From: Methylomarinum vadi
GTDB lineage: Bacteria; Pseudomonadota; Gammaproteobacteria; Methylococcales; Methylomonadaceae
Direction: 5' to 3'
Assembly (NCBI RefSeq): GCF_000733935.1
Contig: NZ_JPON01000001.1
Span: 310,001 to 374,000, forward strand
DNA: 64,000 nt
In this document: positions 3,055 through 22,898 of the stretch, in pieces
Numbering within the stretch: position 1 is the stretch's first letter
How the letters are laid out: each line of letters opens with the position of its first letter
Notes under the pieces: model-generated
Told to the model about the DNA's origin: nothing
Database searches by the model: none
Seen by the model: the letters and a program-made list of their open reading frames with translations, nothing else
Translations under genes and position numbers: made by a program

Positions 3055-5430
3055 ATGCAAGTTAGTGAAGCCTGGTTAAGAGAACTGGTCAACCCGTCCG
3101 TTACCACTGATGAATTGGTGGAGCAGTTGACCATGGCCGGCCTGGAAGTCGATTCAGTGGAGCCTGCAGCGGCCAAATTCAGTCATGTTGTTGTCGCGCA
3201 AGTGGTGTCGATGGTTCAGCACCCGAATGCCGATAAATTAAAAGTCTGCCAAGTTAATGTCGGCGAAGCGGAGCCGATACAAATAGTTTGTGGTGCCAGT
3301 AATGTTCGCGAAGGATTGAAAATACCGGCCGCTTTGATTGGCGCCGTTCTGCCCGGCGATTTCAAGATTAAGAAATCCAAATTACGCGGCGAGTTGTCGT
3401 TTGGCATGCTTTGTTCGGAAAAGGAATTGGGACTTGCCGATGACGCCAGTGGCCTAATGGAGTTGCCTGATGATGCGCCAGTGGGCACGGATATCCGCGA
3501 ATACCTGGCTTTAGATGATTCGTTGATTGAAGTCGATCTGACTCCTAACCGCGCCGATTGTTTAAGTGTGGAGGGTATTGCACGTGAACTGGCTGTTTTG
3601 AATAAAATGAATTGGGCACCGGTACAGGTTGCGGAAGTCAAGATTGCTCACGAGGATGTGTTGAATGTCGAGGTGGGAGCACCGCAAGATTGCCCGCGTT
3701 ATTTGGGGCGGTTGATCAAGAACGTCAATCCGCAAGCGGAAACGCCGATGTGGATGCAGGAAAAATTGCGCCGCTCCGGCATAAGAAGTCTTGGCCCCTT
3801 GGTGGATGTAACCAACTATGTGTTGGTGGAATTGGGACAACCGCTGCACGCCTTCGATGCGGCCAAATTAAATGGCGGAATCGTAGTCAGAAAAAGCCGC
3901 CGGAATGAAGAGCTGAAGTTGTTGAACGAGCAAACCATTAAGTTGGATGGGGAGGCGCTAGTCATCGCCGACCAACACCAAGCGTTGGCTTTAGCAGGGG
4001 TCATGGGTGGAGAAAGTTCCGCGGTAAGTGATGATACTCGAGACATTTTTCTGGAATGCGCATTCTTCAGTCCTACCAGCATCGCAGGAAAGGCGCGCCA
4101 GTTCGGGCTGCATACCGACTCTTCCCACCGTTTTGAGCGCGGCGTCGATTTTACCTTGCAACAACGGGCAATCGATCGGGCGACGCAATTAATCATCGAA
4201 ATTAGCGGCGGTGAGGCGGGCGCTATCACCGAAGTCAGTCATTATGAGCATCTGCCGCAACGGGCCCCGGTTGAACTGAGACGTGAGCGTATCGGGAAAA
4301 TTCTCGGTTTAGCAATTGCCGATGACGAAGTCGTTGCGATCTTTCGTGGTCTCGGCATGCAGGTGGCGACGATTGTCGATGGCTGGGAAATCACGCCACC
4401 GGGTTGCCGCTTCGATATCGCGATCGAAGCCGACTTGATAGAGGAAATCGCGCGGATCTATGGGTATAACAATCTGCCGAATAGCAGTTTGTTGATGCGT
4501 ACCGAATTGGGCAAGGCGCCTGAGGCTTTACTGCCCCTGGATAGAGCCAAGAACTTATTGGTGGATCGCGGTTACCAGGAAGCCATTACCTATAGCTTTG
4601 TTGACGAGGACATCCAGCAGATGCTGGCTCCGAACGACGAAGTCATCCGCCTGCAAAACCCGATTTCATCCGAATTGTCGGTGATGCGTACCACCTTGTG
4701 GTGTGGTCTACTGAATGCGGCGCTTTACAATACCAAGCGCCAGCAAAACCGGGTCAGATTGTTTGAAAGCGGTCTGCGTTTTATAAGACACAACGGCGAG
4801 ACATTGCAGCAGCCGATGTTGGCCGGTTTGGCCTTGGGTGGCGTTCATGCCGAGCAATGGGCCGAAAAAACACGTAAGATCGATTTCTTCGATGTGAAAG
4901 CCGATCTCGAGGCTTTGTTTTCTTTGAGCGGAAGTAGGGTTGCTTTTAAGGCGGAAAAGCATTCGGCCTTGCATCCAGGCCAGTCGGCGCAACTGTTTAA
5001 CGATGCGGGTGAGGCGCTCGGCTGGCTGGGCATGCTGCATCCGACTTTGGAAAAACAATTGGGATTCGACAGTCAGGTTTTCTTATTCGAACTGGAACTA
5101 AATAAAGTATTGGAAAAACGCGTTCCGGTATTCAAATCGCTGTCGCGCTTTCCGTCGGTCAGACGCGATTTGGCGGTTACCGTCGCGAATAAGGTTACGG
5201 CAGCTGAAATTATTGCTTGTATTGAGAATTGTAGGGAACAGGCGATACAATCCGTGCGTATTTTCGATGTTTATCGTGGCGCCGGAGTGGAAGACGGTTA
5301 TAAAAGCGTTGCACTGAGTCTCACATTGCAAGATTTTTCACAAACACTCACGGATTCTGAAATTGATGCTATATTTAACAACGTATTGCATGCATTAATG
5401 ACAGAATTAAGTGCAAAATTGAGGGACTGA
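3055..5430 (+). CDS. pheT: Phenylalanyl-tRNA synthetase beta subunit
   Basis: Non-catalytic partner of PheS that binds tRNA-Phe and edits misacylated product; 791 residues, the normal length. Domains in order: an EMAP/OB-fold tRNA-binding domain at about 40-150 (HPNADKLKVCQVNVG), B3/B4 editing domain at about 200-380 (FDAAKLNGGIVVRKS, ALAGVMGGESSAV), B5 domain at about 400-475, class II-like core, and a C-terminal ferredoxin-fold anticodon-binding domain (SRFPSVRRDLAVTV onward). It is cotranscribed with pheS, and ihfA begins 4 bases after its stop. Confidence 0.97.
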   Translation: MQVSEAWLRELVNPSVTTDELVEQLTMAGLEVDSVEPAAAKFSHVVVAQVVSMVQHPNADKLKVCQVNVGEAEPIQIVCGASNVREGLKIPAALIGAVLPGDFKIKKSKLRGELSFGMLCSEKELGLADDASGLMELPDDAPVGTDIREYLALDDSLIEVDLTPNRADCLSVEGIARELAVLNKMNWAPVQVAEVKIAHEDVLNVEVGAPQDCPRYLGRLIKNVNPQAETPMWMQEKLRRSGIRSLGPLVDVTNYVLVELGQPLHAFDAAKLNGGIVVRKSRRNEELKLLNEQTIKLDGEALVIADQHQALALAGVMGGESSAVSDDTRDIFLECAFFSPTSIAGKARQFGLHTDSSHRFERGVDFTLQQRAIDRATQLIIEISGGEAGAITEVSHYEHLPQRAPVELRRERIGKILGLAIADDEVVAIFRGLGMQVATIVDGWEITPPGCRFDIAIEADLIEEIARIYGYNNLPNSSLLMRTELGKAPEALLPLDRAKNLLVDRGYQEAITYSFVDEDIQQMLAPNDEVIRLQNPISSELSVMRTTLWCGLLNAALYNTKRQQNRVRLFESGLRFIRHNGETLQQPMLAGLALGGVHAEQWAEKTRKIDFFDVKADLEALFSLSGSRVAFKAEKHSALHPGQSAQLFNDAGEALGWLGMLHPTLEKQLGFDSQVFLFELELNKVLEKRVPVFKSLSRFPSVRRDLAVTVANKVTAAEIIACIENCREQAIQSVRIFDVYRGAGVEDGYKSVALSLTLQDFSQTLTDSEIDAIFNNVLHALMTELSAKLRD

Positions 5431-6159: not shown

Positions 6160-6236
6160 CGGGGCGTAGCGCAGCTTGGTAGCGCACTATACTGGGGGTG
6201 TAGGGGTCGTGGGTTCGAATCCCGCCGTCCCGACCA
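6160..6236 (+). tRNA. tRNA-Pro (anticodon GGG), CCA encoded; island attachment site
   Basis: A 77-nt cloverleaf. Acceptor arm CGGGGCG pairs with CGTCCCG, followed by A73 and CCA. The D-arm is GCGC...GCGC. The anticodon stem CTATA/TGTAG encloses the 7-base loop CTGGGGG, giving anticodon GGG. The T-arm is GTGGG TTCGAAT CCCGC. The gene is complete, so the island insertion at its 3' half left tRNA function intact. A copy of only its 3' part lies at 22732-22778. Confidence 0.97.
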
Positions 6237-6238
6237 AT
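6192..6238 (+). repeat. attL core, 47-bp direct repeat (3' part of tRNA-Pro)
   Basis: Identical to 22732-22778. Weaker similarity continues beyond the core: 'aatcaattggttatagaggt' at 6241-6260 resembles 'aatcgattggtttagaggtt' at 22781-22800. Left of the core the two copies differ at once. This sets the crossover within or 3' of the anticodon loop, a usual position for tyrosine recombinases at tRNA genes. Confidence 0.93.
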
Positions 6239-6271
6239 AAAATCAATTGGTTATAGAGGTTGAATCCTGGA

Positions 6272-6805: not shown

Positions 6806-7258
6806 TTATCGATCACCCTCTATACAGGAGTTTAGGCCGTCGATAGCCTCTTGCAGTAATTTCTCATTGCTATACTTATCCAGGTCTCCCGTGAGACAGT
6901 TGACGGCGCCAGCCAAATAGCGATCCAGCTCACTGAAAAAGCCTACCATTTGACCACGCAAAGCATCATGTTCTGGTGAATCGTTGCCTTCACTATCGAA
7001 CATATCCATCGCTATCGTCTGTAAGGATCCGCCGCCATCGCCACAACCGTACTCTCTAAGATGCTTTAAGTAGATCAAGGCAAGAGCGTTACCAGTTTTG
7101 CAGCCACCAGAATAGCCACCTGTTTTCGGAACATTCCAAAAAGAAATGCCGCTCTTTCCTGGCTGGGTATCCACGAATGGCAAACGGTGAACCGGGACTT
7201 CTTTACCGTTCTTGAAATTCAATTCTGTTGTTGTATGGATGGTTGTTTGAGTAGCCAT
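6806..7258 (-). CDS. Hypothetical island protein, 150 aa
   Basis: I do not recognise a family. The 150-residue protein begins MATQTTIHTTTELNFKNGKE, has a Gly-rich, partly Cys-containing middle (SFWNVPKTGGYSGGCKTGNALA) and an acidic helical C-terminus. No signal peptide or membrane segment is visible. Coding is supported by a strong AAGGAGG (7262-7268) just before the ATG and a well-formed terminator after the stop. It sits alone on its strand at the left end of the island, where accessory genes are common. Confidence 0.75.
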   Translation of the reverse strand: MATQTTIHTTTELNFKNGKEVPVHRLPFVDTQPGKSGISFWNVPKTGGYSGGCKTGNALALIYLKHLREYGCGDGGGSLQTIAMDMFDSEGNDSPEHDALRGQMVGFFSELDRYLAGAVNCLTGDLDKYSNEKLLQEAIDGLNSCIEGDR

Positions 7259-7689: not shown

Positions 7690-7965
7690 ATGGTTTACAG
7701 GATAAGACCTTTAAAACCCGAGGCGGAACTCCCGTTACTGACGATCAGCTTGACCGACTGGGTATTGATGGAAGTCGGCGGATCGCAAGAAGAATTGAAC
7801 AATATCCTCTCCGACAAAGACAGACTGAAGAGTTTCCAGAATCGATATACCTACGCACGTCGATTAAAAGAGCAATACTCACAAATGCCGTCTTACAGGA
7901 AAGCGATTCAGCGGGACGGGGACGAATTTTTTCTGAGATTAGCCGCAACCTATCGGGGGGATTAG
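7690..7965 (+). CDS. Hypothetical island protein, 91 aa
   Basis: An unrecognised 91-residue, charged, probably helical soluble protein (MVYRIRPLKPEAELPLLTIS..., then KSFQNRYTYARRLKEQYSQM). It has no signal peptide or membrane segment. It is transcribed away from the 150-aa gene across a 430-bp non-coding stretch. The Shine-Dalgarno is weak. An IS200-like element has inserted about 50 bases after its stop. It is real in length and composition, but the evidence for expression is thin. Confidence 0.55.
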   Translation: MVYRIRPLKPEAELPLLTISLTDWVLMEVGGSQEELNNILSDKDRLKSFQNRYTYARRLKEQYSQMPSYRKAIQRDGDEFFLRLAATYRGD

Positions 7966-8015: not shown

Positions 8016-8608
8016 TTAATTATCCATCATAAGGTTTAAACCACCGGCTTTAGCCGGTCAGCTTTAGCTGCGATAATTTGCCCAAGGAGGTGGCGATGGA
8101 CTATAGATACGGCAGCCATACGGTTTACCAAATTGAGTATCATTTTGTTTGGGTTACGAAGTATCGTTATAAAGTGCTGAAGGATGAAATAGCCGAACGA
8201 GTGAGAGACTTGGTGCGGCAGACATGCGAAGCCTTTGAGATACGGATTATCAAAGGTGTCGTGAGCAAAGATCATGTGCACATTTTGGTGAGTGCGCCGC
8301 CGACTATGGCCCCAAGCGAAATCATGAGGCGAATCAAGGGACGAACTTCGAGCTATCTGTTCGAAGAGTTCCCGCACTTGAAAAAGCGATATTGGGGTCG
8401 ACATTTTTGGGCCCGCGGTTATTTTTGCGCCACAGTGGGGCAAATGACTGATGAGATGATAAAGCAATATTTGGAGCATCACTTTGAACCTAATCCAAAC
8501 GATAATTTCAAGATGGAGCCCGACTAAGACGCGTCGTTTAGTCGACGCGTATCCGGACTTTCAGTCCGTTATTGGAACCCACCCGCTTGAGCGGGTGGTT
8601 GTTTAGTT
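8016..8608 (+). mobile_element. IS200/IS605-family element, copy 1
   Basis: A 593-bp block identical to 55976-56568. It encodes only a Y1 transposase, with no tnpB. Subterminal hairpins are visible: CCGGC/GCCGG at 8043-8056 on the left; GCGTCG/CGACGC (8531-8548), CGGACT/AGTCCG (8554-8568) and ACCCGC/GCGGGT (8581-8596) on the right. IS200/IS605 elements end in such hairpins and make no target duplication. The exact ends are uncertain by a few bases because TTAAT on the left may be target sequence. Confidence 0.9.
8096..8527 (+). CDS. tnpA: IS200/IS605-family transposase TnpA
   Basis: A 143-residue HUH/Y1 transposase that cuts and joins single-stranded DNA at hairpin ends. Seen: HVHILV (the HUH motif region), the family N-terminus YRYGSHTVYQIEYHFVWVTK, and a C-terminal helix with the candidate nucleophile Tyr (TDEMIKQYLEHH). 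I place the start at ATG 8096 because AAGGAGG (8084-8090) lies just before it; an upstream in-frame TTG at 8078 precedes that ribosome site. It is identical to the copy at 56056-56487. Confidence 0.95.
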   Translation: MDYRYGSHTVYQIEYHFVWVTKYRYKVLKDEIAERVRDLVRQTCEAFEIRIIKGVVSKDHVHILVSAPPTMAPSEIMRRIKGRTSSYLFEEFPHLKKRYWGRHFWARGYFCATVGQMTDEMIKQYLEHHFEPNPNDNFKMEPD

Positions 8609-8647: not shown

Positions 8648-8968
8648 ATGTTTGAATTAACGACAGGCAAAACAATTGCTCTTTTATCGCTGGTATTGAT
8701 TATCGCACTCTATTACCAGCCGATGTCGTTAGATTTAGGTGAGGATGTTTTGTCATTCTATGCTATTTTTCTTTACGCATTTTTACCAGCCTTTAGTTAC
8801 CAATTAAACAAACTTATTCAATCACTGACAATACCCATATGTATAGGCACAGCGCTTATGTTAGGTGTTATCTGGTTTGTAGCCATTGAGTCTTTTTTTC
8901 CGAAATATGCTCTGTTATTTGCCTCCACAGTGGCTTGCGGTAATTATTTGCTACTGAGATTAAAGTAA
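8648..8968 (+). CDS. Small integral membrane protein, hypothetical (106 aa)
   Basis: No family recognised. The 106-residue protein has about four hydrophobic segments (IALLSLVLIIALYY; FYAIFLYAFLPAF; IPICIGTALMLGVIWFVAI; LLFASTVACGNYLLL). It lies 45 bases before the large pseudopilin gene on the same strand and could belong to the same transcription unit. A/T-rich codon use matches the pilin-like genes rather than the host flanks, consistent with acquired cargo. Confidence 0.6.
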   Translation: MFELTTGKTIALLSLVLIIALYYQPMSLDLGEDVLSFYAIFLYAFLPAFSYQLNKLIQSLTIPICIGTALMLGVIWFVAIESFFPKYALLFASTVACGNYLLLRLK

Positions 8969-9013: not shown

Positions 9014-10942
9014 ATGCGCCGAAATTTCATGTTTCAATCCGGTTTTACACTGGTCGAATTATTGGTGGTTTTATTAATCATTACCGCCATGACCAAAATA
9101 GCCCTTGAATATACTAAAGACTTTGCATTTCAGGGGCGTTACGAAGTCACTAAAGACCGCTACGAAAAAATCAAACGCGCCATCATCGGCCGCCCGGATG
9201 TACTGATTAACGGACAGCCGGACATATCGGGTTTTGTGGCCGATATGGGGAGGTTGCCTAGGAATTTACAGGAATTGTTGGTGCAGAATTATTGCAGCGA
9301 CGACTACCGTATTTCTGACAATACACCCGACGCTACAGGTATTACCGGCGCAACGGGAGCAACCCCAGAAGAATGGTGTACTTCCGAAACAGATACACCC
9401 GGGGGAGTATGGCTCAGTGCAAGTTGCAATGACCCAACCAAAACAACACTGGCCACATGCGGAGCATCTGATTGGTCAGATTGGAATGGTCCTTATATAA
9501 CAAGTAAAAAACCAGACTATAAACCCAATGCAATTTCCGATGGCTGGGGCAATGAAGCAACCGGTTTAACCGACCATAATTATGGTTGGGCATTTTGTTT
9601 AAGCGACAATCCGGATATAGAGACTCCCAGCACTTGCTATAGTCCCACTAACACTGGTGTTGGAACGAGTCGCTTGGCACTTCAAAGCAAAGGGAAAAAC
9701 AGCTCTATCAATAGTATCGATTCAGAGTACGATGCTGACTATCCTACCGACCCGATATTGCTAAATAATGGTGATTGGATGGTTCCCTTGCAAAATATAA
9801 CTATTAATATGCAAGCTCCAGTTCAGCACCTTTATAACTGCTCAACAAACGGAGTTGCAGAAAATGCCTGTAAAAATACGGCTAACTGGAATTGGTTTGG
9901 CAAGCCAGAATGTAGAGACGGAAGTAATGCTTTAACTTCTCATGTTACCCCATCCACTTGCATAGCCGCGGGAAACACATGGTACTGGTTTACTGGATGG
10001 CCAGCAGGTCTCTCCTTTTGTGCTGGTGGCACTTCAATAGGTAACGAAATTGACTCTACTACATGTTCGTCAGTTTCCGGACACTGGATTACAGACGGCC
10101 TATGTAGTGGAGGCACAGGAAATGAAACAACCTTATCTGAATGCTTGAGTGTTTCAGGCATATGGCGAAGAGGTTGGTGTCGAGGTGGCTCAGCTTCTGG
10201 AAATGAAGCAGACTCTGCCTCTTGTGCTTCTGTTTCTGGAACTTGGTATACGGAGTGGCCTTTGAATGGTTCCAAATGTTCCAATCCTTATTATTTAAAT
10301 CAAACTGATTGCGAATCTGCCGGTCATTCTTGGATTGTTCCTTTTTGCACTAATCCAGCTCAATCGACCAAAGCATTATGTACTGGGGCTAATGAAAGCT
10401 GGGTAATTTCCTTTTGTTCTGTTTCAGGAATATCCACGACTGATGACTCAACTTTTACTGAAGCGAATTGCGATACTTCCGGAGGTGTATGGGGAGGTTG
10501 CATCGGCGATACAAATTCAAAAAATTTTTGCGACTCAAATGGAGGACGATGGATTGCATCTACACAAGATATCGACTTGGTATTAGTTCATGAAGATGGC
10601 ACCGATACTGTGACTGTTACTGCTACCATTGAAGAAAATGGATATAACCAGAATGTTGTTTTTTATCCGGCCACAAGTTTCCCTCAAGGGTTAGCTGATA
10701 TAAATATTTACAAATCGGGAACAACTAACATTTATCCTCCTTCATGTTCAGGATTGGACGTTGATACAATCGCAGATGCTTTTCCTTCCGACTGCGAAAG
10801 TATAGGTGGAACCTTGTTGAGTAACGGTTTATGTGATGATGTAACAATAATCGATTGTAGAGCTACAAATGGGCATTTATTGAGGCAGACGTCAAAAGCA
10901 TTAATTGTACCTAACAGTAACAATTTGGTGATTAACTGGTAG
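9014..10942 (+). CDS. Large pseudopilin-like protein with tandem Cys/Trp repeats (642 aa)
   Basis: The N-terminus has a class III signal: a short basic leader, then G/FTLVELLVVLLIITAMT, matching prepilin peptidase sites (cleavage before Phe, Glu at +5). Methylated, membrane-anchored export through a type IV pilus or type II secretion-like machine is expected. A pilin-like helix runs to about residue 60. Residues about 300-512 contain roughly eight tandem units of the form C-x(7-15)-C-x(3-5)-G-x-W (for example SCASVSGTW and FCDSNGGRW). Ordinary pilins are 130-200 residues, so this is an adhesin-like or tip-like giant. A second Met (9029) is an alternative start. I do not recognise the repeat family. 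Confidence 0.85.
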   Translation: MRRNFMFQSGFTLVELLVVLLIITAMTKIALEYTKDFAFQGRYEVTKDRYEKIKRAIIGRPDVLINGQPDISGFVADMGRLPRNLQELLVQNYCSDDYRISDNTPDATGITGATGATPEEWCTSETDTPGGVWLSASCNDPTKTTLATCGASDWSDWNGPYITSKKPDYKPNAISDGWGNEATGLTDHNYGWAFCLSDNPDIETPSTCYSPTNTGVGTSRLALQSKGKNSSINSIDSEYDADYPTDPILLNNGDWMVPLQNITINMQAPVQHLYNCSTNGVAENACKNTANWNWFGKPECRDGSNALTSHVTPSTCIAAGNTWYWFTGWPAGLSFCAGGTSIGNEIDSTTCSSVSGHWITDGLCSGGTGNETTLSECLSVSGIWRRGWCRGGSASGNEADSASCASVSGTWYTEWPLNGSKCSNPYYLNQTDCESAGHSWIVPFCTNPAQSTKALCTGANESWVISFCSVSGISTTDDSTFTEANCDTSGGVWGGCIGDTNSKNFCDSNGGRWIASTQDIDLVLVHEDGTDTVTVTATIEENGYNQNVVFYPATSFPQGLADINIYKSGTTNIYPPSCSGLDVDTIADAFPSDCESIGGTLLSNGLCDDVTIIDCRATNGHLLRQTSKALIVPNSNNLVINW

Positions 10943-11933: not shown

Positions 11934-13082
11934 TCAATACAATCTCATCAGTTCGTCATCTCCCAAAGGAAGAGGAGCATACCCTAGCTTTTTTAGCCGC
12001 TGTTGAATCTTGTTGATAACACCAACCTTATCCTCCTGGCTTAAATCTGAATCGGCCAATTTTTCCAAGGCAAGAACCGCCTCGTCATGCGCTTGAGTTT
12101 CCGCGATTCGTCCCGTATTCGGATTAATTGCAATCGGTTCCTCTCCCACAACAACCTTATTGCCAAGACCATCGTCTTCATAAATTTTCCGTAATTTGAC
12201 AATTGGCTGATTCAATTCCTTTTGTTTTAACTGGTTATTCGTATTTTTCAGATTTACCAAATCATCCAGTTTGAGGCTTTCCAGGACAAAATTCGCCTTC
12301 TTGCTCGCCGCCTCGTTATCGAGCTCCATTGCTTTAAGCGCTTGGTCGTTTTCCGTATTACGCTGTTTTATCGCCGATTTAACTTGATTATTCCTTGCGA
12401 CCGCTGGCAGCATCGAGGCAATAGCCATATTCAACCCTGCGATACCGCCAAAGGCACCGCGCGGAATGTTTTTAGCGTTTATACCGGTTTGCTGGAGCAA
12501 AGGATTTGTAATGGCCGCTCCTGAATCATTATTCAAGTAATCGGATGCTCTGCCTTGGTTAACGTTTATCCGCAATCCTCTGGGCATCGCTAAAGAGGGT
12601 GTTACTTCTTTCTGGAGCGGTTTTTGAACCGTCTGCTTAGCGCTCGGCGAGACCGCCGAGAAAGGAATGGAACCATTAATGCCGACCGGCTTGGTTTCAC
12701 CGGGCTTAGGTGTCGGCAAAGTGTCTTTGTTTTTAACCAAACTATAACCGAGCGGATTACCATCTTTTTCCGCCTTGTGTAAATAGTCAATCAATTGTTT
12801 TGATTTATCGTCCCACTTTCTACCGAAAAGCACTCCAGCCGTTTTACCGAGGGCCCGAATTTGAAAATCCCGAATGGGATTTGCAATTTCTGTCAGCCCC
12901 TCAATTGACTTAAATGCGAGATCCCCGCCAGCTCCAACAAGCCCGCCTTCGTCAAACGAGTTTTTTACGTCACGCCCAATTTCGCCAAGGCGATTATTTA
13001 CAGCTTCACCGTATTGTCCAAGCTCTGATTCACGCAGATTATCAAACAATGATTTTGGTTTTTTTTGAGAATATAAAGGCAT
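11934..13082 (-). CDS. Hypothetical island protein, 382 aa
   Basis: Not recognised. It is a soluble, Ala/Gly/Asn-rich protein with a hydrophobic Gly/Ala patch near the middle (RGAFGGIAGLNMAIASMLPA) and a long charged helical segment after it (KQRNTENDQALKAMELDNEAASKKANFVLESL). It has no signal peptide. Helix plus Gly-rich patch recalls phage internal or ejection proteins, but I cannot name a family, so that is only a hint. It lies 64 bases after the 160-aa gene on the same strand, probably one unit ending at the terminator 11888-11914. Confidence 0.7.
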   Translation of the reverse strand: MPLYSQKKPKSLFDNLRESELGQYGEAVNNRLGEIGRDVKNSFDEGGLVGAGGDLAFKSIEGLTEIANPIRDFQIRALGKTAGVLFGRKWDDKSKQLIDYLHKAEKDGNPLGYSLVKNKDTLPTPKPGETKPVGINGSIPFSAVSPSAKQTVQKPLQKEVTPSLAMPRGLRINVNQGRASDYLNNDSGAAITNPLLQQTGINAKNIPRGAFGGIAGLNMAIASMLPAVARNNQVKSAIKQRNTENDQALKAMELDNEAASKKANFVLESLKLDDLVNLKNTNNQLKQKELNQPIVKLRKIYEDDGLGNKVVVGEEPIAINPNTGRIAETQAHDEAVLALEKLADSDLSQEDKVGVINKIQQRLKKLGYAPLPLGDDELMRLY

Positions 13083-13146: not shown

Positions 13147-13629
13147 TCAAGGACAAGCCGGTTTCTGTTTCTCTGCCAAAAACTCTTGGTGCTGCCTAGC
13201 CTCTTCCTGTTTTCGTTTTTTGAACTCTGCGTTAAGCCGCCTATTTCGCGCGTAATTGCTTTCCCGGTTTTCAGAAGGCGTAGGTGCATCCACATTGGCT
13301 TTCGTTTCCTGTGGCGCTTGTACTTCGCCATGTGGCCGGATTGCGCCGATAGGTAAGCCGGTTAATTCCTCCAGACGTTCACCAAGGCGGCTTGTTGACC
13401 GGGCGAATACTTCAACCTCCTGACCATCGATCTCAACAAACAAATGATGCAGGCAATTTTCCGCTACCCGGTCGATCACTCGGCGATAATGTAGGAAGTC
13501 GCTAGATGCTGCGCCAAGGGTTCCCCAGTGTTCGGGATAAAGCCGGTTGGCTATACTAGGATTAACAACCAGTATTCCAGTAGCCAATAGGCTTTGTTGT
13601 GCATAAGTTTTGATTTTTAAATCTGACAT
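13147..13629 (-). CDS. Hypothetical island protein, 160 aa
   Basis: Unrecognised. An N-terminal globular half (MSDLKIKTYAQQSLLATGIL..., HYRRVIDRVAENCLHHLFVE) is followed by a low-complexity Pro/Glu linker and a basic coiled-coil tail (NRRLNAEFKKRKQEEARQHQEF). No signal or membrane segment. It is the first gene of a probable two-gene minus-strand unit with the 382-aa protein. Upstream lies the insertion-damaged small gene interrupted by the IS1182-like element, so it may originally have followed that gene. Confidence 0.65.
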   Translation of the reverse strand: MSDLKIKTYAQQSLLATGILVVNPSIANRLYPEHWGTLGAASSDFLHYRRVIDRVAENCLHHLFVEIDGQEVEVFARSTSRLGERLEELTGLPIGAIRPHGEVQAPQETKANVDAPTPSENRESNYARNRRLNAEFKKRKQEEARQHQEFLAEKQKPACP

Positions 13630-13749: not shown

Positions 13750-15132
13750 GAGCTATGATCATTTCTGGTGTATGACTTGAGAAGAAAGCGGTGTAACCTG
13801 TTTGGCTAAGATCTCGCCAGATCAACCACCAAACGAGAAGGAAACACCACCATGGTACATAGTAATGTCATCAACCTGAATAAGCTAGAGCAAAATGATC
13901 CGTTGCAAGAAGTGTTGCGAGACGGTGCCCGTAAAATGCTGGAGGTAGCGATTGAAGCGGAAGTAAAAGCCTTTATTGATCAGCATAGCGGGCTGAAGAC
14001 CGACGAAGGTAAGGCAGCGGTCGTTAGAAATGGTTATTTGCCTGAACGTTCAATTCAAACAGGGCTGGGTGATATTGAAGTCAAAGTCCCGAAGGTTCGG
14101 GATCGATCCGGTTCGGGGATCAAGTTTAACAGTCGCTTGGTGCCGCCATATTTGAAGCGAAGCAAGAACATCGAGGAATTTCTGCCTTGGCTGTATTTGC
14201 GAGGAATCTCGACGGGAGATTTCCCGGAGACCTTAAAACACCTATTGGGATCGGACGCTCCTGGCTTATCCGCTGCGACGATCAGTCGGCTCAAGCAGGA
14301 TTGGGAGCATCACTATCGGGACTGGACGCGTCGGGACCTGAGTAATAAACGATATGTGTATGTCTGGGCCGATGGTATTTACAGCAACGTCAGAATGGAT
14401 GATCGACTCTGTCTACTAGTCATCATTGGTTCCGATGAAACGGGGCGCAAAGAACTCATCGCCTTAGTCGATGGCTACCGGGAATCGGCTGCGAGCTGGG
14501 AAGAGGTGTTGATGGATTTAAGGCAGCGTGGCCTCTCTACGGACCCGAAATTAGCGATTGGAGATGGCGCTCTCGGTTTCTGGAAAGCCGTCGCTAAGCT
14601 TTGGCCGCAGACCGACCAGCAACGCTGTTGGGTGCATAAGACAGCCAATGTACTGGAGAAATTGCCCAAAGCCATGCAACCCAAGGTTAAAGAGGCGTTG
14701 CACAATATCTGGCAAGCCGAGACGCGGGAGGCGGCCTATCAAGCCTTTGATCACTGCCTCGAACGGTTTAGTCCGAAATACCCGAAGGCCATGGAATGCT
14801 TGGCAAAAGACAAAGCCTCGATGTTGGCATTTTATGATTATCCTGCTGAAAACTGGCAGCATATTCGAACGACCAACCCGATCGAGTCCGTCTTTGCTAC
14901 GGTGAGATTGAGAACGACTAAGACCAAGAATTGCGGCAGCCGGATAACCACGTTGGCGATGGCGTTTAAACTGATCGAAACAGCCCAGAGAAGATGGTTT
15001 CGGCTTAGGGGCTATAAACATTTAGCCGATGTGATTACCGGCGTGAAATTCGTCGACGGTATTAAACAAACGGGAGATCAAAAACAGGACGCCGCTTGAT
15101 TCTCTTCTATACACCAGATTTGACAATAGCTC
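13750..15132 (+). mobile_element. IS256-family insertion sequence with 9-bp target duplication
   Basis: 1,383 bp flanked by the direct repeat GGGCGTCGT at 13741-13749 and 15133-15141. Terminal inverted repeats of about 24 bp (left begins GAGCTATGATCATTTCTGG; right, read inward, GAGCTATTGTCAAATCTGG) match at 20 of 24 positions. A 9-bp duplication fits the 8-9 bp of IS256. The target lies in the left terminal repeat of the IS1182-like element, so this insertion is the later one. Confidence 0.95.
13852..15099 (+). CDS. IS256-family transposase
   Basis: A 415-residue DDE transposase (Mutator/IS256 class), full length. It begins with EVLRDGARKMLEVAIEAEV. Candidate catalytic residues: Asp in VYVWADGIYSN, Asp in LAIGDGALGFWKA, and Glu in TNPIESVFATVRLRT, with the family signature QRCWVHKTANVLEKLP between the second Asp and the Glu. 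The frame is intact and the element has clean ends, so it may still be active. Confidence 0.96.
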   Translation: MVHSNVINLNKLEQNDPLQEVLRDGARKMLEVAIEAEVKAFIDQHSGLKTDEGKAAVVRNGYLPERSIQTGLGDIEVKVPKVRDRSGSGIKFNSRLVPPYLKRSKNIEEFLPWLYLRGISTGDFPETLKHLLGSDAPGLSAATISRLKQDWEHHYRDWTRRDLSNKRYVYVWADGIYSNVRMDDRLCLLVIIGSDETGRKELIALVDGYRESAASWEEVLMDLRQRGLSTDPKLAIGDGALGFWKAVAKLWPQTDQQRCWVHKTANVLEKLPKAMQPKVKEALHNIWQAETREAAYQAFDHCLERFSPKYPKAMECLAKDKASMLAFYDYPAENWQHIRTTNPIESVFATVRLRTTKTKNCGSRITTLAMAFKLIETAQRRWFRLRGYKHLADVITGVKFVDGIKQTGDQKQDAA

Positions 15133-15161: not shown

Positions 15162-16799
15162 TTACCACTGGAAACCGGCCGTATTTTCCACGGTCGGCGA
15201 AGTTGGCAAGTCAGTAGTGTAACTCAGCCAAATGTCGACCATTCGGTCAAACGAGCTCATAAACCGGCTAAGCCAATGATATAAAGCACGAAAAAGAGCT
15301 GCCACTAAGGCGCGGCTCAGATTGTAAGCCATGGCGTGCAAGGCGAACTCTACTTTGACACCCGCCAAACCTTTACGGCGAAAGCGATTCAAACCTTGGC
15401 GACCGCGTAGCTGACTGAAGACGGGCTCCACCATGGCCTGCCGCTGTCGATAGCGTTGCCGAGGTTCGGGCTGGTCCATTTTCAGGCGCAGGGCTTCTTT
15501 TTGTGTATCGCTGTCATAGCGTTTGAGGGTGCGACCACTCTCGCTACGCGTGCATTGGGATTTCAGCGGGCAGTCTGAACAGGCATCGCAGGCGTAGACG
15601 GTATAAGCGCGGCCACTTTTACCGCCTTTGCAGGTGTGACGGCGAGTCAAGCGTTGTTGCCCCGGACAGCGATAGGTGTCGTCGTCGGCCTGATAAATAA
15701 AGCGGCTTTTGGGGATTTGTTTGTTGGATTGTTTGTTCCAATCGTCTCCTTCACTTTGGCCTTCCGGACAAAGCAATTCGATGTTGTGTTGCTCAGCAGT
15801 ATCCAAGACGCCATTGCTGAAATAGCCAGCATCGAACAGAGCTGTTTCGACGCCTCCCATGGCTTGGGCGCGATCCAGTAAGCCCGGCACCACCTCGGTT
15901 TCGCTGGAAGGATGAACGTCGCAAGCCACGATCACTCGATTGTCGTTCGCCAATACCGACGGTTTATAACTGCCGCGAAAGTCTTTGGAGTTCTTTTGCG
16001 GCTGTAATACCGCCTCCGGCTCGTTGCTTTGTACTTGGGTCTTGGCCGGATCTTTGCCTTTGGCGGCTTGTTTTTGCTGGCGAGACTTTAGCTCGGCTTG
16101 GGCTTGTTCCAATAGGTTCAACCGCTTGCTTGCCGCTGCATCGTCGGGTTTGGCTTGCGCGGCTTCCTGCGCTTGCGCCAAGGCTTGCTTGAGCGCTTCT
16201 TCCTTCATCAATTGAAACCGGGAGGACATGGCTTCGATCACGGTACCGTCGCCCGCCAACGTCGTCGTGCCTGAGCCTGTGACTTTCAAAGTACGACGCG
16301 CCAGTTGATCGAAAAATTCGGTCGTCAATGATTCGGCATGCTGATGGACGAAACGGCCAATGACTGAGTGATCCGGCATGATACCGCCACTTAGCCACCA
16401 ACACCCCACATCGGCTCGAGCTAAACGCTCCAAGTCGCGCAGGCTGCTGATGCCTTGTAACAGGCCGTAGAGAATAATCCCCACCATCGCACGTGGCGCA
16501 TACGGCGGACGCCCGCCGGGCCGATAACGGGCTTCGAACTCGGCGAAGGATAGCGATTGCAGGAAGGGGCGCAATTTCAACGGGATGGTTAAGCCGGCGT
16601 GCTCCAGATGTTCGCCGAGCGGTTTACCGTTGATCGATAAGCCGCGCGGGTCGGGCGCTTCAAAACGGGCCATCGGTTCGCTCGAGATCGATTGAGCGAT
16701 CAACTCAGGTAACGGTTCAACCTCGCATTCATCGAATAGCGAATATTGCTTGGCGCTATACAATGTCCTGACGGGTCTAATGTTCACTTCGGCTGCCAT
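15162..16799 (-). CDS. IS1182-family transposase
   Basis: About 545 residues from the likely native ATG at 16799 (MAAEVNIRPVRT). The same frame is open upstream to 17117 only because the insertion fused it in frame to a host-island gene. Seen: the family N-domain (RPPYAPRAMVGIILYGLLQG, SSLRDLERLARADVGCWWLSGG), Asp in LAGDGTVIEAMSS, Asp in LFDAGYFSN, a Cys-rich segment (CDACSDCPLKSQC) and Glu in VEPVFSQLRGRQG. The transposase frame itself is intact, but the left end of the element has been broken by IS256, which should impair its mobility. Confidence 0.92.
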   Translation of the reverse strand: MAAEVNIRPVRTLYSAKQYSLFDECEVEPLPELIAQSISSEPMARFEAPDPRGLSINGKPLGEHLEHAGLTIPLKLRPFLQSLSFAEFEARYRPGGRPPYAPRAMVGIILYGLLQGISSLRDLERLARADVGCWWLSGGIMPDHSVIGRFVHQHAESLTTEFFDQLARRTLKVTGSGTTTLAGDGTVIEAMSSRFQLMKEEALKQALAQAQEAAQAKPDDAAASKRLNLLEQAQAELKSRQQKQAAKGKDPAKTQVQSNEPEAVLQPQKNSKDFRGSYKPSVLANDNRVIVACDVHPSSETEVVPGLLDRAQAMGGVETALFDAGYFSNGVLDTAEQHNIELLCPEGQSEGDDWNKQSNKQIPKSRFIYQADDDTYRCPGQQRLTRRHTCKGGKSGRAYTVYACDACSDCPLKSQCTRSESGRTLKRYDSDTQKEALRLKMDQPEPRQRYRQRQAMVEPVFSQLRGRQGLNRFRRKGLAGVKVEFALHAMAYNLSRALVAALFRALYHWLSRFMSSFDRMVDIWLSYTTDLPTSPTVENTAGFQW

Positions 16800-17343
16800 T
16801 GATCTATTTCTAATAGGTTTGGATAGGGTTATTTTACCGTATGTAGCTGGTTGGGGGGCTTTTACGACAGCCTCCATTGGCGGGGGATTCTTGCGAAGGA
16901 AATCAGCCCGACCTTTGCGAAGCTGTTTCAACTGAATTCTTCGCTTTTGTCGATTCATACCAGCCGCCTTCATAAATGCGACTTCCATCAATGTCGATGT
17001 TTTATCCAGTTCGGCCAAAAGATTCATCGATCTTTGGAACCGGGTTCCCTGGGTCAGTCGGTTATGGGTTTCGCGGTCGATCATCGCGCTTTTGCCGTCT
17101 TGTGAAATTTCAATCATGGAGATTCCTGCTTTGTGGTTAGTGAATTGAATTCGGTAATAGGGCCGAGTGAACGTTCGGAGCGTTATAGGAAACCAGTCTG
17201 TAATTTCCAGGGATCTGTTTCCAGGAATCGGAATTGATATGGAAGGTGATTGTTTGTGATTTTTTCATATTGAGAATTTCCAATCGGCTACTGTTTCTGT
17301 TTTCTTCATTCCGGCATATCGGGCGGGTGATTCTGTCTTGATA

Positions 17344-17591: not shown

Positions 17592-19715
17592 TTATCTCCG
17601 GGTTATTTCTTTACTGTGCCCCCTGCGTTTTTCAACCACATGGATGACATTTGTATCAAATAACCGCTTCATCGATTCCTCAAGCTGTTTTTTACTCCAC
17701 TTGAGGCTTCTACTTTTCACTATGTCGTAAAACTCTTTGGGAGCATAATGACCTTGCTTATGATCGGAAACCGATTGTCCACGGGCATTAAATTCATCCA
17801 ATAAACTTAAAAACAGAGCGTCAATTTCATCCTGTTCTTTTTTGAGTTCGGAATTTACGAAATTCGGAATTCCCTGGTTGGGAACAAAGGCTCCGTTTTG
17901 CCAAACCATTTCTATTTTTTCACCGGTCTTGCCGTAATTGGCTTTCTTAAGCTCCAGTGTGACTATTCCGGTTTTGTCGTCGCGGGTTAAATAAAGGCGA
18001 GAGCGAACGGTATTGCTCCAAGCGGTGGAACCACCGTCACCGTTGTTGCTATTAATACCTGTCTGTGAGGGGTGGGCCAATAGGAGAACGGCACAATTAA
18101 ATTCGGTGGCAATATTGGTTAAGCATCGTTGGATGTACTGCCTAACTTGTGGGCGAATATTCTCATTTCCGCCGAATGTATCAGCGGCGGTATCGACAAT
18201 CACCAAGATGGGGCGAATGCGTTTTACTTCGCCGTGTAATTGATGCCAGAAAGGCGTTAATTCGCCTCTGTCACCACTAAAGGTAATCAGTAAATTGTCA
18301 AACCCAACACGGCTGCAAAGGTGCGAGTTACCTAATTCTTTATAGGAAGCGCCAAGAGCGTTATTGATGTCTTCTTGTCGCCTGTGGAGTTCGTCAAATG
18401 TGTCCTCACAGTAGATACCAAGGACAGGGCCGTGTTTAACATCGAAGCCCAAGAACTTCTTTCCTGTTGCAACGGCGGTTTGTAACTGTTGAGTAGCTAA
18501 CGACTTACCAGTACCGCCGGAAGCGTAGAAAATGGTTGTTTGCGCTGTTGGAATAATACCGGGCCATAACCATTCTCGCTCTTTGACGGGTTTGCCATCG
18601 AATAAGGATGCTGGTTGACAATATAGCGGCTCAACAAATTTCCCTTCGTTTTTGGGGTCTTGTCTGGCCGCATTCAAAACGCCTCGGATCGCATCCAGGC
18701 CGAATACTTGGTGAAAATCATTGAAGTCCGTGCGCGGTTTACCGTTTTCGTCGAACTGATAATTTTCCTCATGGCTGCGCCAGAATTCCGGCCAAATACA
18801 AATCGCCCCTATTTCTTTCGCTGCTGCCTTGCCGCGGTGAATCCCGGAATTTTCGTTTTCCGGTCTGAGAGCTCCATCCTTTCTATATCGATCGTTGTCG
18901 GCGCAAATCGTGATATTGGTATCGGGATGTTTGATCCTGACCATTCGCGCGACTGTTTCCAGGTTATAGCAATCGAACGCGACATAAACCGTTGCGCCAG
19001 TTGCCATGTGATAACTGGCGCCTGTCGCATAGCCTTCACAGATTGCCAATTCAAATTCCGACCCTGAAATAACAAAAAAACAACCTTTTTTCTCTCCGCC
19101 AAATGGGAATCTTTTCTTACCATCCATGTTGATGGTTTGATAGTTCCTGATTTCTCCATGTTCGTTTCGCAGGGGGAGAACCAAATTGACGCCTTCAATT
19201 CTTGCATCCCCGAAAGCTTTGACTTTTTTTAATTCGAGATACCGGTGGTTTTTTGCCGGCTCCAGTTCCTCAGCCTTTTGTTTTGCCTTTTCCGCAGTAG
19301 CGTCGTGAACTGCTTGTATTTTGGCGTCGGATCGAGCTTTCTCTTCTGCCTGAATCCTTTGATGATGCCCAATTTCTGAAGGCGACATCTGAGGCCGGTC
19401 TTTATGCCAACTGCTCCAGTTCTGGCGCGGGACTTCATCATTCCAGGTGCCAAAATTGACATACAAATGGTTGCCGATCCAGGAGGCAATATAAAAACCT
19501 GTTTTCTTTCCTCGTTTGTCGTTGGCGTGCTTTACTCTATGCCATTCGCCATCCGTGTTGATGTGCCCGGAGATTAAAAGCCCGTGTGATTCAAGATGAC
19601 GTGTTGCCTCTGAAGTAATTTCATATCCAGAGTAAGAGTTTGTCGGTTGATTCGCCGCCGGTGGTTGGTACGGCTCATGTTCTGAAGGGTCGAATTCAAA
19701 GCCAAAATAGGCCAT
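17592..19715 (-). CDS. TOPRIM primase / RepA-like helicase (707 aa)
   Basis: Element replication protein. The N-terminal ~150 residues are charged. A TOPRIM domain follows at about 200-300 (ELAICEGYATGASYHMATGA with the conserved Glu, then YVAFDCYNL and ITICADNDRY), as in P4 alpha-type primases. An AAA/RepA-like ATPase begins near residue 385, with Walker A YASGGTGKS, GIYCEDTFDELHRR and Walker B LVIVDTAADTF. The C-terminus is helical and basic. The architecture fits plasmid/phage-satellite primase-helicases. Repeats that could be its origin lie just downstream; AlpA is upstream. Confidence 0.9.
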   Translation of the reverse strand: MAYFGFEFDPSEHEPYQPPAANQPTNSYSGYEITSEATRHLESHGLLISGHINTDGEWHRVKHANDKRGKKTGFYIASWIGNHLYVNFGTWNDEVPRQNWSSWHKDRPQMSPSEIGHHQRIQAEEKARSDAKIQAVHDATAEKAKQKAEELEPAKNHRYLELKKVKAFGDARIEGVNLVLPLRNEHGEIRNYQTINMDGKKRFPFGGEKKGCFFVISGSEFELAICEGYATGASYHMATGATVYVAFDCYNLETVARMVRIKHPDTNITICADNDRYRKDGALRPENENSGIHRGKAAAKEIGAICIWPEFWRSHEENYQFDENGKPRTDFNDFHQVFGLDAIRGVLNAARQDPKNEGKFVEPLYCQPASLFDGKPVKEREWLWPGIIPTAQTTIFYASGGTGKSLATQQLQTAVATGKKFLGFDVKHGPVLGIYCEDTFDELHRRQEDINNALGASYKELGNSHLCSRVGFDNLLITFSGDRGELTPFWHQLHGEVKRIRPILVIVDTAADTFGGNENIRPQVRQYIQRCLTNIATEFNCAVLLLAHPSQTGINSNNGDGGSTAWSNTVRSRLYLTRDDKTGIVTLELKKANYGKTGEKIEMVWQNGAFVPNQGIPNFVNSELKKEQDEIDALFLSLLDEFNARGQSVSDHKQGHYAPKEFYDIVKSRSLKWSKKQLEESMKRLFDTNVIHVVEKRRGHSKEITRR

Positions 19716-19842: not shown

Positions 19843-20082
19843 TTACGCCATTTTTTCCATAAGGTTGTTAGCTGGCGCTACTGTTTGCTCAACAGAATTT
19901 ATCCAGCGAGTAACATCATCTTGATACCAAAGTTTTTTGCCGCGAATGTAAACTGGCTTGGGGAAGGTTGGGTCGGTTTTTGACAATCGCCAAATCGTTG
20001 TTCTGGATAAACCGCTCTGGGCTTGAAATTTGCGGTCTGTAATGCGGTATCTTACGGATTGGTGTGGTGCTGGTGTTCCCAT
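19843..20082 (-). CDS. AlpA-family DNA-binding regulator (79 aa)
   Basis: A short winged-helix protein of the AlpA/MerR-like group: YRITDRKFQAQSGLSRTTIWRLSKTDPTFPKPVYIRGKKLWYQDDVTRWI. In E. coli, AlpA activates excision of a cryptic prophage, and in Gram-negative phage-inducible islands it is the master activator. Here it probably controls excision or replication genes of the island. It lies 127 bases upstream of the primase-helicase on the same strand. The family is secure; the regulatory direction is inferred. Confidence 0.92.
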   Translation of the reverse strand: MGTPAPHQSVRYRITDRKFQAQSGLSRTTIWRLSKTDPTFPKPVYIRGKKLWYQDDVTRWINSVEQTVAPANNLMEKMA

Positions 20083-20672: not shown

Positions 20673-21026
20673 TTACATCTTATTGCCCAGCGTCTTGTCC
20701 AGAGTAAGTAGCTCAAGACGGTAGGTGAGGGCGGTCGCGGCGATAATCGCATCCGGAAGCTTCATACGATGTTGCTTCCTCAATTCAATCGTGGCGTCTT
20801 CAATAGTCGTATCAATGCCGATATGCGTCATTTGTTTCAGCAAGCTATTTATCACTTGCTCTTCCAGTTCGGTAATACCAGGAAATCCAAGCAATTCCAT
20901 TCGAGTAATTGAACTGTATGCACAATCGGACAGAGCAATACCACGTAACCGGTCTACTGCTGGCGCATGGCCTTTTGTCAGCCCGATCAGAATATTGGTG
21001 TCGGTCAGAAACTTAATCCCATTCAT
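20673..21026 (-). CDS. VapC-like PIN-domain toxin
   Basis: A 117-residue PIN nuclease; VapC toxins usually cut tRNA or rRNA. The acidic metal-binding residues are in place: Asp in FLTDTNILIG (near residue 8), Glu in TRMELLGFPG, Asp in KLPDAIIAATAL and Asp in LTLDKTLG. It overlaps the upstream small antitoxin gene by 14 bases, the standard translationally coupled arrangement. On an island it most likely stabilises the element. The target is unknown. Confidence 0.9.
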   Translation of the reverse strand: MNGIKFLTDTNILIGLTKGHAPAVDRLRGIALSDCAYSSITRMELLGFPGITELEEQVINSLLKQMTHIGIDTTIEDATIELRKQHRMKLPDAIIAATALTYRLELLTLDKTLGNKM

Positions 21027-21272: not shown

Positions 21273-22505
21273 TTATCCGACATTTCGAATCGGAACCACA
21301 TTAGTTTGTGGGTTAACTTGTAACATCACGAACCGTGACCAGCGTTCCAACGCTTCCCTCCGTTCATCCAGGTAGCTGTTTTGGTTATAAACTGCGTTGA
21401 TTGCGCCAAGGGAATGGTTCAGGCATTTTTCGGCAATATGCGGCTGAACATTTAGTTTTTCCAAGTGGGTGCGGATTGTGCGCCGGAAGTCGTGCGGGGT
21501 TGCGCGGTCAATGGTCAAGGCCTGGCATTCAAATAATCGGCGCATGGCCCGGCCTAACACCTTGTCGGTGATTTGACCGTTTTTACCGGGGAAAACATAA
21601 ACCGGGTCGATTCCCTGTAATTCTTCAATAAGCTGGCAAATCTCGTCGGTTAACGGAACCACCCATTCCGAAAAGGTCTTAGTGTGTTCCTTTGGAATAA
21701 ACCATTCCCGTCGCTCCAGGTCGATATTGCACCATTCGGCTTGTAATAGCTCCCCAGTGCGCACACCGGTCAGCATGAGCGTTTTTAGGGCGTTCTTGAC
21801 GGGTAGGGACATCTTAGGGGCTTCGCTGATTGCGTCCCATACCGGCTTTAATTCTTCGGTTTTAAGCCATCTGTCGCGCTTATTCAGGACAACGCCTAAA
21901 TCTTTCTTGTCCAAGGCGTAGGCTGGGGATCGGTCGATATATCCACGCCCCTCGGCAAATTTGAAAAGTTGTTTCAGAATCGATGTGACCTTGCCGGCGT
22001 GAGCGATTGCGCCGCGCTTAACGACGACCTGAACGCAATTGACAACCGCCACGGTAGATAGGGTGGCTAATGGTTTTCGGCCCAATACGGTGTTTATGTC
22101 GTGGTCTATGACTTGCTTAACAGCTTCGGGTCGGCGAAGGTGGGGAAGTATCCTATCTTGATAAAAAACAGCGCATAATTCCTCGACTGTTTTCGGCACG
22201 TTGGTTGTCGCGTTTAACTCTCCAGCATCATGTTTCTTTTTCGCCGTTTCCAGGGCCTTCCTTGCTGCTGATAATGTAAGTTGGCTGTCGCCGTCACCAT
22301 ACCTGCCAAGGGTAAGCATTTTCAGCTTATTGGTTTCAGGATCATTGTAAAACCAGACAAAGGATTTTTTCCCGGTTGTTCCAACGCGAACACGTAAGCC
22401 ATGACATGATTTGTCGGCAACGTCATAACGTTTATCTTGTGGTTTTAGATTCTTGATAAAGGCATCGGTCAAGCCTTTGGGGGGTGCTATAATTTTTTCC
22501 GCCAT
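21273..22505 (-). CDS. int: P4-type tyrosine recombinase (island integrase)
   Basis: Catalyses integration and excision at tRNA-Pro. 410 residues. An N-terminal DUF4102/arm-binding domain (about 1-95, with SCHGLRVRVGTTGKKSFVWFY) is followed by a core-binding domain (about 110-205) and the catalytic domain: Arg in MLTGVRTGELLQAEW, HDFRR (H-x-x-R) near residue 345, and Tyr in INAVYNQNSYLDE. It lies 227 bases inside attR with its start pointing towards that end. Arm-type repeats lie between its start codon and attR, so its promoter overlaps its own binding sites; autoregulation is plausible. Confidence 0.95.
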   Translation of the reverse strand: MAEKIIAPPKGLTDAFIKNLKPQDKRYDVADKSCHGLRVRVGTTGKKSFVWFYNDPETNKLKMLTLGRYGDGDSQLTLSAARKALETAKKKHDAGELNATTNVPKTVEELCAVFYQDRILPHLRRPEAVKQVIDHDINTVLGRKPLATLSTVAVVNCVQVVVKRGAIAHAGKVTSILKQLFKFAEGRGYIDRSPAYALDKKDLGVVLNKRDRWLKTEELKPVWDAISEAPKMSLPVKNALKTLMLTGVRTGELLQAEWCNIDLERREWFIPKEHTKTFSEWVVPLTDEICQLIEELQGIDPVYVFPGKNGQITDKVLGRAMRRLFECQALTIDRATPHDFRRTIRTHLEKLNVQPHIAEKCLNHSLGAINAVYNQNSYLDERREALERWSRFVMLQVNPQTNVVPIRNVG

Positions 22506-22731: not shown

Positions 22732-22778
22732 CTGGGGGTGTAGGGGTCGTGGGTTCGAATCCCGCCGTCCCGACCAAT
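22732..22778 (+). repeat. attR core, 47-bp direct repeat of the tRNA-Pro 3' part
   Basis: Identical to 6192-6238. It lacks the acceptor 5' strand, D-arm and 5' anticodon stem, so it is not a tRNA gene. The host sequence resumes to its right. Between 22779 and the yqaA stop at 22899 I see nothing else. Confidence 0.93.
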
Positions 22779-22898
22779 GCAATCGATTGGTTTAGAGGTT
22801 GATTTGGCTATTCCCGCCCACTCATTCTTCACATCATGCCGTTCGGCAGTTGTTTCTCGAAGTGAACGACTAAAAGTTGATCGTGTTGAATGGCAAGC

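Follow-up and report, generated by a model that had tools for sequence, protein, structure and literature searches.

Why should a mobile element of Methylomarinum vadi, a presumed methanotroph, carry a pseudopilin of 642 residues, and which filament would such a protein enter when no secretion or pilus machinery lies beside its gene? The question arises from a 64,000-nucleotide stretch of an M. vadi contig, referred to here as the window, in which a sequence-only reading had described a giant pseudopilin (P0001) with Cys/Trp tandem repeats. The features of the locus are collected in Table 1.

Table 1. Features of the P0001 locus and of the element that carries it (window coordinates).
Feature	Position	Strand	Remarks
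tRNA-Pro(GGG), integration target	6160..6236	+	
attL, 61-nt direct repeat including the tRNA 3' end	6192..6252	+	
150-aa phage-family protein	6806..7258	-	phrog_12849, E 3e-20; tblastn: 36 records, all Pseudomonas phages
91-aa protein, weak phage-family match	7690..7965	+	phrog_17864, E 3e-4
IS200-type transposase	8078..8527	+	PF01797
P0003, 106 aa, hydrophobic (by eye a membrane protein)	8648..8968	+	
P0001, giant modular pseudopilin	9014..10942	+	predicted cleavage after Gly10 (9043/9044)
Cys/Trp repeat arm, residues 276-513	9839..10552	+	9 of the 10 loose units
C-terminal beta domain, residues 515-642	10556..10939	+	final residue is the family's conserved Trp
P0002, GspG-like pseudopilin partner of P0001	11066..11815	+	TIGR01710
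382-aa protein	11934..13082	-	32-aa block in common with a 422-aa protein of prophage G062
160-aa protein	13147..13629	-	no match in Pfam, PHROG and TIGR profile scans
Mutator transposase	13852..15099	+	PF00872; presumably IS256-type
DDE transposase	15162..17117	-	PF13751; which we take to be IS1182-like
TOPRIM/AAA phage-type primase-helicase	17592..19715	-	PF13362, PF13481, phrog_2249
79-aa AlpA-like regulator	19843..20082	-	label by eye; no Pfam match
PIN-domain protein	20673..21026	-	PF01850
Tyrosine integrase	21273..22505	-	PF00589, PF13356, PF22022, phrog_1
attR	22732..22792	+	direct repeat

The P0001 gene is a single uninterrupted open reading frame, the product of which carries the prepilin motif QSG/FTLVELL; it scores 21.2 bits with PF07963 (cut-off 21.2) and 21.6 bits with TIGR02532 (above the cut-off of 16.3). 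The one-frame protein with a prepilin signal described earlier is thus borne out. A frame error joining a pilin N-terminus artificially to the repeats, raised as a possible artefact, can be set aside, since the relatives of P0001 have the identical continuous layout. Both the class III signal (G/FTxxE) and a hydrophobic helix are present, the latter spanning residues 13-58 in a predicted structure of poor overall quality (pLDDT 54.9). Gly10, Glu15 and the N-terminal motifs are conserved in the alignment with relatives, and P0001 shares with the large pseudopilins of Methylococcales both the N-domain motifs (NGQPDISGFVADMG and GW-GPY) and a C-terminal domain with a final Trp. In a TIGRFAM-type profile scan the matches listed for P0001 are solely N-terminal pilin matches, with no GspK family match among them.

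The protein contains 28 Cys and 22 Trp residues, and the roughly eight repeat units attributed to it stand in part. The motif as first formulated, C-x(7-15)-C-x(3-5)-G-x-W, fits only four times, a number attained in 0.05% of 2000 shuffles (shuffled mean 0.12), whereas a looser unit, C-[^C]5-17-C-[^CW]3-6-W, fits ten times (shuffled mean 0.95, maximum 5, in 2000 shuffles). In addition, eight consecutive C-x6-W spacings can be traced, in which the Cys residues from 316 to 506 each open the last part of a unit and the series ends at Trp513. The arm units are judged to be old, since their pairwise DNA identity averages 56% and TRF detects no DNA tandem repeat in the gene. A profile check of the repeat region found no Pfam domain that covers the arm.

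The surrounding DNA is A/T-richer than its neighbourhood, as had been noticed before: the GC content is 0.42-0.43 in three 2-kb intervals over 8-12 kb, compared to 0.46-0.51 at 1-6 kb. The gene lies within a 16.5-kb element bounded by 61-nt direct repeats at tRNA-Pro (95% identical), which share an exact 27-nt att core at 6210 and 22750. Together with the tyrosine integrase, these repeats support the proposed mobile island, and att repeats at a tRNA gene combined with an integrase are a trait of integrated prophages. The primase-helicase matches 96 phage records, in two of which the match extends over at least 80% of the query. None of ten proteins of the element matched head, tail or packaging families when scanned against PHROG; the element, which resembles a prophage remnant, is therefore termed a remnant or satellite rather than a prophage. 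The IS200-type transposase frame next to the P0003 gene occurs a second time in the window, at 56038-56487, with an identical translation.

P0001 does not form a separate family: its homologues serve as the large pseudopilin in a machine of type II secretion/MSHA-like kind and occur chiefly in Methylococcales. When the proteins of 61 genomes, those of the host and of 60 relatives, were searched, 11 genomes had matches, and a profile search at E 1e-8, with up to five candidates scored per genome, matched at least 59 of 311 Methylococcales genomes, a related second system included. Scanning of GTDB contigs yielded 58 loci, about half of them under Methylococcales names and the rest from Methylophilaceae, Methylophaga and several distant phyla. 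Thirty-five first-system loci were mapped, a count that omits the truncated giants L049, L051 and L069 and the unfetched matches of the 311-genome profile search. Of these, 24 have machinery genes, six have P0003 (the window, L042, L045, L089, L092 and L143), and five have neither on the stretch read (L036, L072, L151, L154 and L157). The machinery beside the 24 distinct homologue loci comprises GspE, GspF, a secretin and genes in the PilM/PilO positions, part of it being named by eye at L016 and L029. The secretin scores best with the GspD and MshL models, below their cut-offs in both cases, hence the designation type II secretion/MSHA-like. M. vadi itself possesses, near 4.15 Mb (L016), its own pseudopilin pair, GspE and GspF genes (named by eye) and a secretin frame of 783 residues without stops.

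The sequence-only reading knew of no pilin family with this repeat, and the idea that none has it is not supported: relatives with such units exist, most of those mapped lie next to type II secretion/MSHA-like genes, and a further pair is present in the host chromosome. Like P0001, the Methylococcales large pseudopilin (host copy L016:9365-10717) combines the N-domain, a C-terminal domain ending in Trp and Cys/Trp units. Unlike the operon pseudopilin, P0001 resides on a prophage-like element without machinery, is accompanied by P0003, and its arm is among the longest. No machinery families were found among the ten element proteins scanned, and P0001 is thus classed as a relocated homologue rather than an operon component. 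Its use of a host filament machine, also suggested earlier, is probable.

The number of loose units in 34 first-system members ranges from 0 (three members) to 11, P0001 with ten sharing second place with L031, which indicates that the arm is an expandable insert; 30 of 33 second-system or distant members have no loose unit. The host chromosomal giant is 92.6% identical to that of the congener G002 over 94 residues near the N-terminus, and for its last 140 residues G002 is absent from the best six matches. The best match to the last 140 residues of P0001 is the host chromosomal copy, at just 27% identity. The simplest reading of these comparisons is that the giant pseudopilins would have an exposed, fast-changing C-terminal end.

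Several other large pseudopilins were encountered. Compared with L018:8435-10222, the host chromosomal giant looks mosaic, with a conserved N-terminal part and a divergent end. Bigger Cys-rich proteins occur at L149:8911-11406 (831 aa, 32 Cys) and L157:7933-10302 (789 aa, 32 Cys), and a 724-aa pseudopilin with 20 Cys (L046:3806-5980) lies beside second-system genes in a Chromatiaceae MAG.

The second pseudopilin reported next to P0001 is real; its score with TIGR01710 (34.9 bits) is far below the cut-off of 88.85. A GspG-like neighbour of this kind is a trait of the Methylococcales large pseudopilin that P0001 shares. P0002 matches PHROG 3433 only at E 0.049, and P0001 is not matched at E 0.1. 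PHROG 3433 is labelled pilin and placed in the moron category, so that pilins in phages are not without precedent. The third gene, P0003, links the pair to other mobile copies. With a P0003 profile applied to the window and loci L016-L106, five places were found (the window, L042, L045, L089 and L092), all beside machinery-less giants; among the 311 Methylococcales genomes, with up to 15 candidates scored in each, there are at least four, each again next to a machinery-less giant, and P0003 was seen at none of the 24 machinery-linked loci. Of the indications that these three genes belong together as a module, this association is the strongest. A promoter scan gave 4 hits compared to 7.8 expected, none of which stands out. 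At L143, a P0003-like remnant with stops (about 3585-3749) lies beside an intact pilin pair, with a YebC gene on its other side.

Phage genes accompany several of these copies. The IMG/VR contig G062 is a 53-kb integrated prophage, with 50 nt of a tRNA-Met gene exactly repeated near both ends; it encodes a giant pilin together with a P0002-type pilin, and its P0003-type gene lies on the opposite strand. PHROG matches were obtained for nine of its ten scanned proteins, among them a portal/head-tail adaptor, a terminase, a major head protein, an integrase and the C-terminal part of a DarB-like protein. The tRNA-Met is identical in 78 of 78 bases to that of two of 151 Methylococcales genomes, both of genus g20, whereas 65 of the 151 match at all. 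The phage contig G061 carries a giant and P0003 amid genes for phage replication, thymidylate synthase and endolysin, with PHROG matches for 9 of 10 scanned proteins, and has no separate P0002; the record may be a fragment. At L045 (G237:C91, a MAG contig) the trio lies beside phage anti-repressor, primase and helicase genes, and five of seven scanned proteins match PHROGs. There is no clear phage context at L042, where the trio has one weak PHROG match in three proteins, or on the 4.1-kb contig of L143, with its pair and interrupted P0003 remnant. Two further IMG/VR contigs (L090:9968-10477 and L091:9962-10471) encode a 169-aa protein whose N-terminus is pilin-like and which may be another kind of phage pilin.

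The window and G062 share an arrangement in which the module lies near one att end and is followed by late-type genes on the opposite strand. The 382-aa product of the window and the 422-aa product of G062 have one 32-residue block in common, with 18 identities (E 9e-9 in a single comparison), and are 25% identical overall. Since a search of 310 other genomes and of IMG/VR gave no further relative, this likeness supports the link without proving it. In G062 the module clearly sits among phage genes, and in the window it probably does. The gene immediately downstream of the G062 pilin pair, read from the other strand, encodes a 4021-aa protein with a DarB-like C-terminal part (L103:5472-17537), and the gene of the 422-aa protein comes after it. 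That the module adjoins this DarB-like gene and head genes would suit products that serve as parts of the virion, such as a fibre, and not as subunits of a host filament. We regard this as most improbable: the prepilin signals, like the homologues in machinery operons, speak for assembly by the host, and the G062 pilin pair runs opposite to the DarB-like and head genes.

The ancestry of the pair bears on another explanation, namely that it was captured from the chromosome of another methanotroph on an integrative element and is now a functionless passenger. In the P0002 tree the window groups with L032, L031, L092 and L045 (99/99), its nearest relative being the operon copy L032 (100/96; 69% identity). 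In the giant tree it groups with L038 and L032 (97/93; L038 only 41% filled), within a clade that also holds L031, L089, L045 and L092 (97/97); L042 falls outside the window clade in both trees. Operon and phage copies are thus intermixed, which indicates that exchange between chromosomes and phages has occurred. As the closest relatives, L032 and L038, are operon copies, the window pair may have been captured directly from a chromosome. The passenger explanation also accords with the three transposase genes of the element, its lack of a recognised head or tail gene, and the absence from P0002 of a five-residue loop and a VSAGP motif that are present in eight other aligned copies. The loop is likewise missing in L092, L045, L031 and L032 and present in L042. 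Against a loss of function, all three window frames are intact, the P0003 association recurs on separate phage contigs, and the copies without machinery in two other genomes appear constrained. Between the P0002-type genes of L045 and L143, dN/dS is 0.12 (dS 0.74), and between their giants it is 0.17 with saturated dS (2.0), compared to 0.18-0.30 for operon pairs; P0002 and L032 gave no usable dS. These ratios indicate purifying selection between the two machinery-less copies, as judged from coding sequences. We consider a mere passenger unlikely.

The reading we prefer, with belief and doubt in about equal measure, is that P0003, P0001 and P0002 are a phage's cargo, borne on a decayed prophage, by which alternative pilins enter the filament of the host. 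The homology, the phage context of several copies and the linkage of the module are evident at the level of sequence. P0001 would be a modular minor pseudopilin whose conserved N-terminal part would permit both cleavage by the host prepilin peptidase and assembly by the host type II secretion/MSHA-like machine. The Cys/Trp arm, inserted in its C-terminal part and possibly stabilised by disulfides, would be exposed and would probably occupy the tip of a short filament. P0002 would serve as the partner of P0001, and P0003 may help, or restrain, the pair outside the operon. In a lysogen the phage pair would mix with, or replace, the chromosomal pair, and the filament might then bind, secrete or admit differently.

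This proposal of substituted pilins is favoured by the operon homologues, the host machine, the P0003 linkage, the phage contigs, the 382/422-aa likeness, the dN/dS of 0.12 and the fast-changing end. It is weakened by the state of the machine in the four P0003 genomes. A first-system secretin without stops is present in G000 and G272, whereas the secretin match of G231 is interrupted by stops and G237 (90% complete) has a distant match only (23%). A second giant was not found in G231 or G237, both MAGs with 7% contamination, and assembly by a first-system machine is accordingly doubtful in these two. Further weaknesses are the operon copies as nearest relatives, the poor P0001 model, the lack of a standout promoter, L042 and L143 without clear phage context, G061 without P0002, the 32 residues that carry the 382/422-aa link, and a window element without a head or tail gene.

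Modular pilins are established in PilB of Streptococcus sanguinis and in CofB/TcpB, as outlined in PMC8179133, where, as in P0001, a small pilin module bears a bulky functional one; P0001 differs in a repeat without Pfam match and in its copy on a phage-like element. A close mechanistic analogue is ComZ of Thermus thermophilus, which carries a large module inserted in a pseudopilin-like fold, has the adjacent partner PilA2 and is argued, in PMC6561018, to occupy the pilus tip. The ComZ insert is a beta-solenoid and the protein binds DNA, whereas the P0001 arm is a Cys/Trp repeat.

Phages are known to act on such filaments. Pseudomonas phage proteins, namely Pf4 pVII and the PilB inhibitors, are established inhibitors of type IV pili that serve exclusion (PMC11436027); like the module, they are carried by phages and have a type IV filament of the host as their target. 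They lend some credit to superinfection exclusion, in which the phage pair, perhaps with P0003, would jam or mask the filament against other phages, and the restriction of P0003 to machinery-less giants and the fast variation of the exposed end are in keeping with it. However, the examples considered from PMC11436027 are inhibitors that block pili or lower their expression, with no substitute pilin, whereas the window module consists of pseudopilins. Moreover, no phage using this filament came to light, and jamming does not need long repeat arms. Exclusion by jamming or masking is in our estimate somewhat unlikely.

A more specific form of the preferred reading, substitution of host pilins by phage cargo, is put forward tentatively, as possible though doubtful: temperate phages of methanotrophs would carry a dedicated three-gene module, a small membrane protein and two pseudopilins, that makes the host machine build a phage-specified filament with a lengthening, swapping tip arm, amounting to lysogenic conversion or to exclusion by pilin substitution. 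The literature searched yielded no phage-borne substitute tip pseudopilin, nor any study of this machine, be it for secretion or for pili, in bacteria that oxidise methane. If real, the supply of substitute pilins by a phage itself would represent another strategy beside switching type IV pili off, and it would reveal at which end this little-studied filament encounters viruses. The findings point to a secretion or pilus machine of methane oxidisers whose largest subunit changes its exposed end quickly, and the phage gene set shared with related viruses suggests that viruses re-equip or block this host surface filament.
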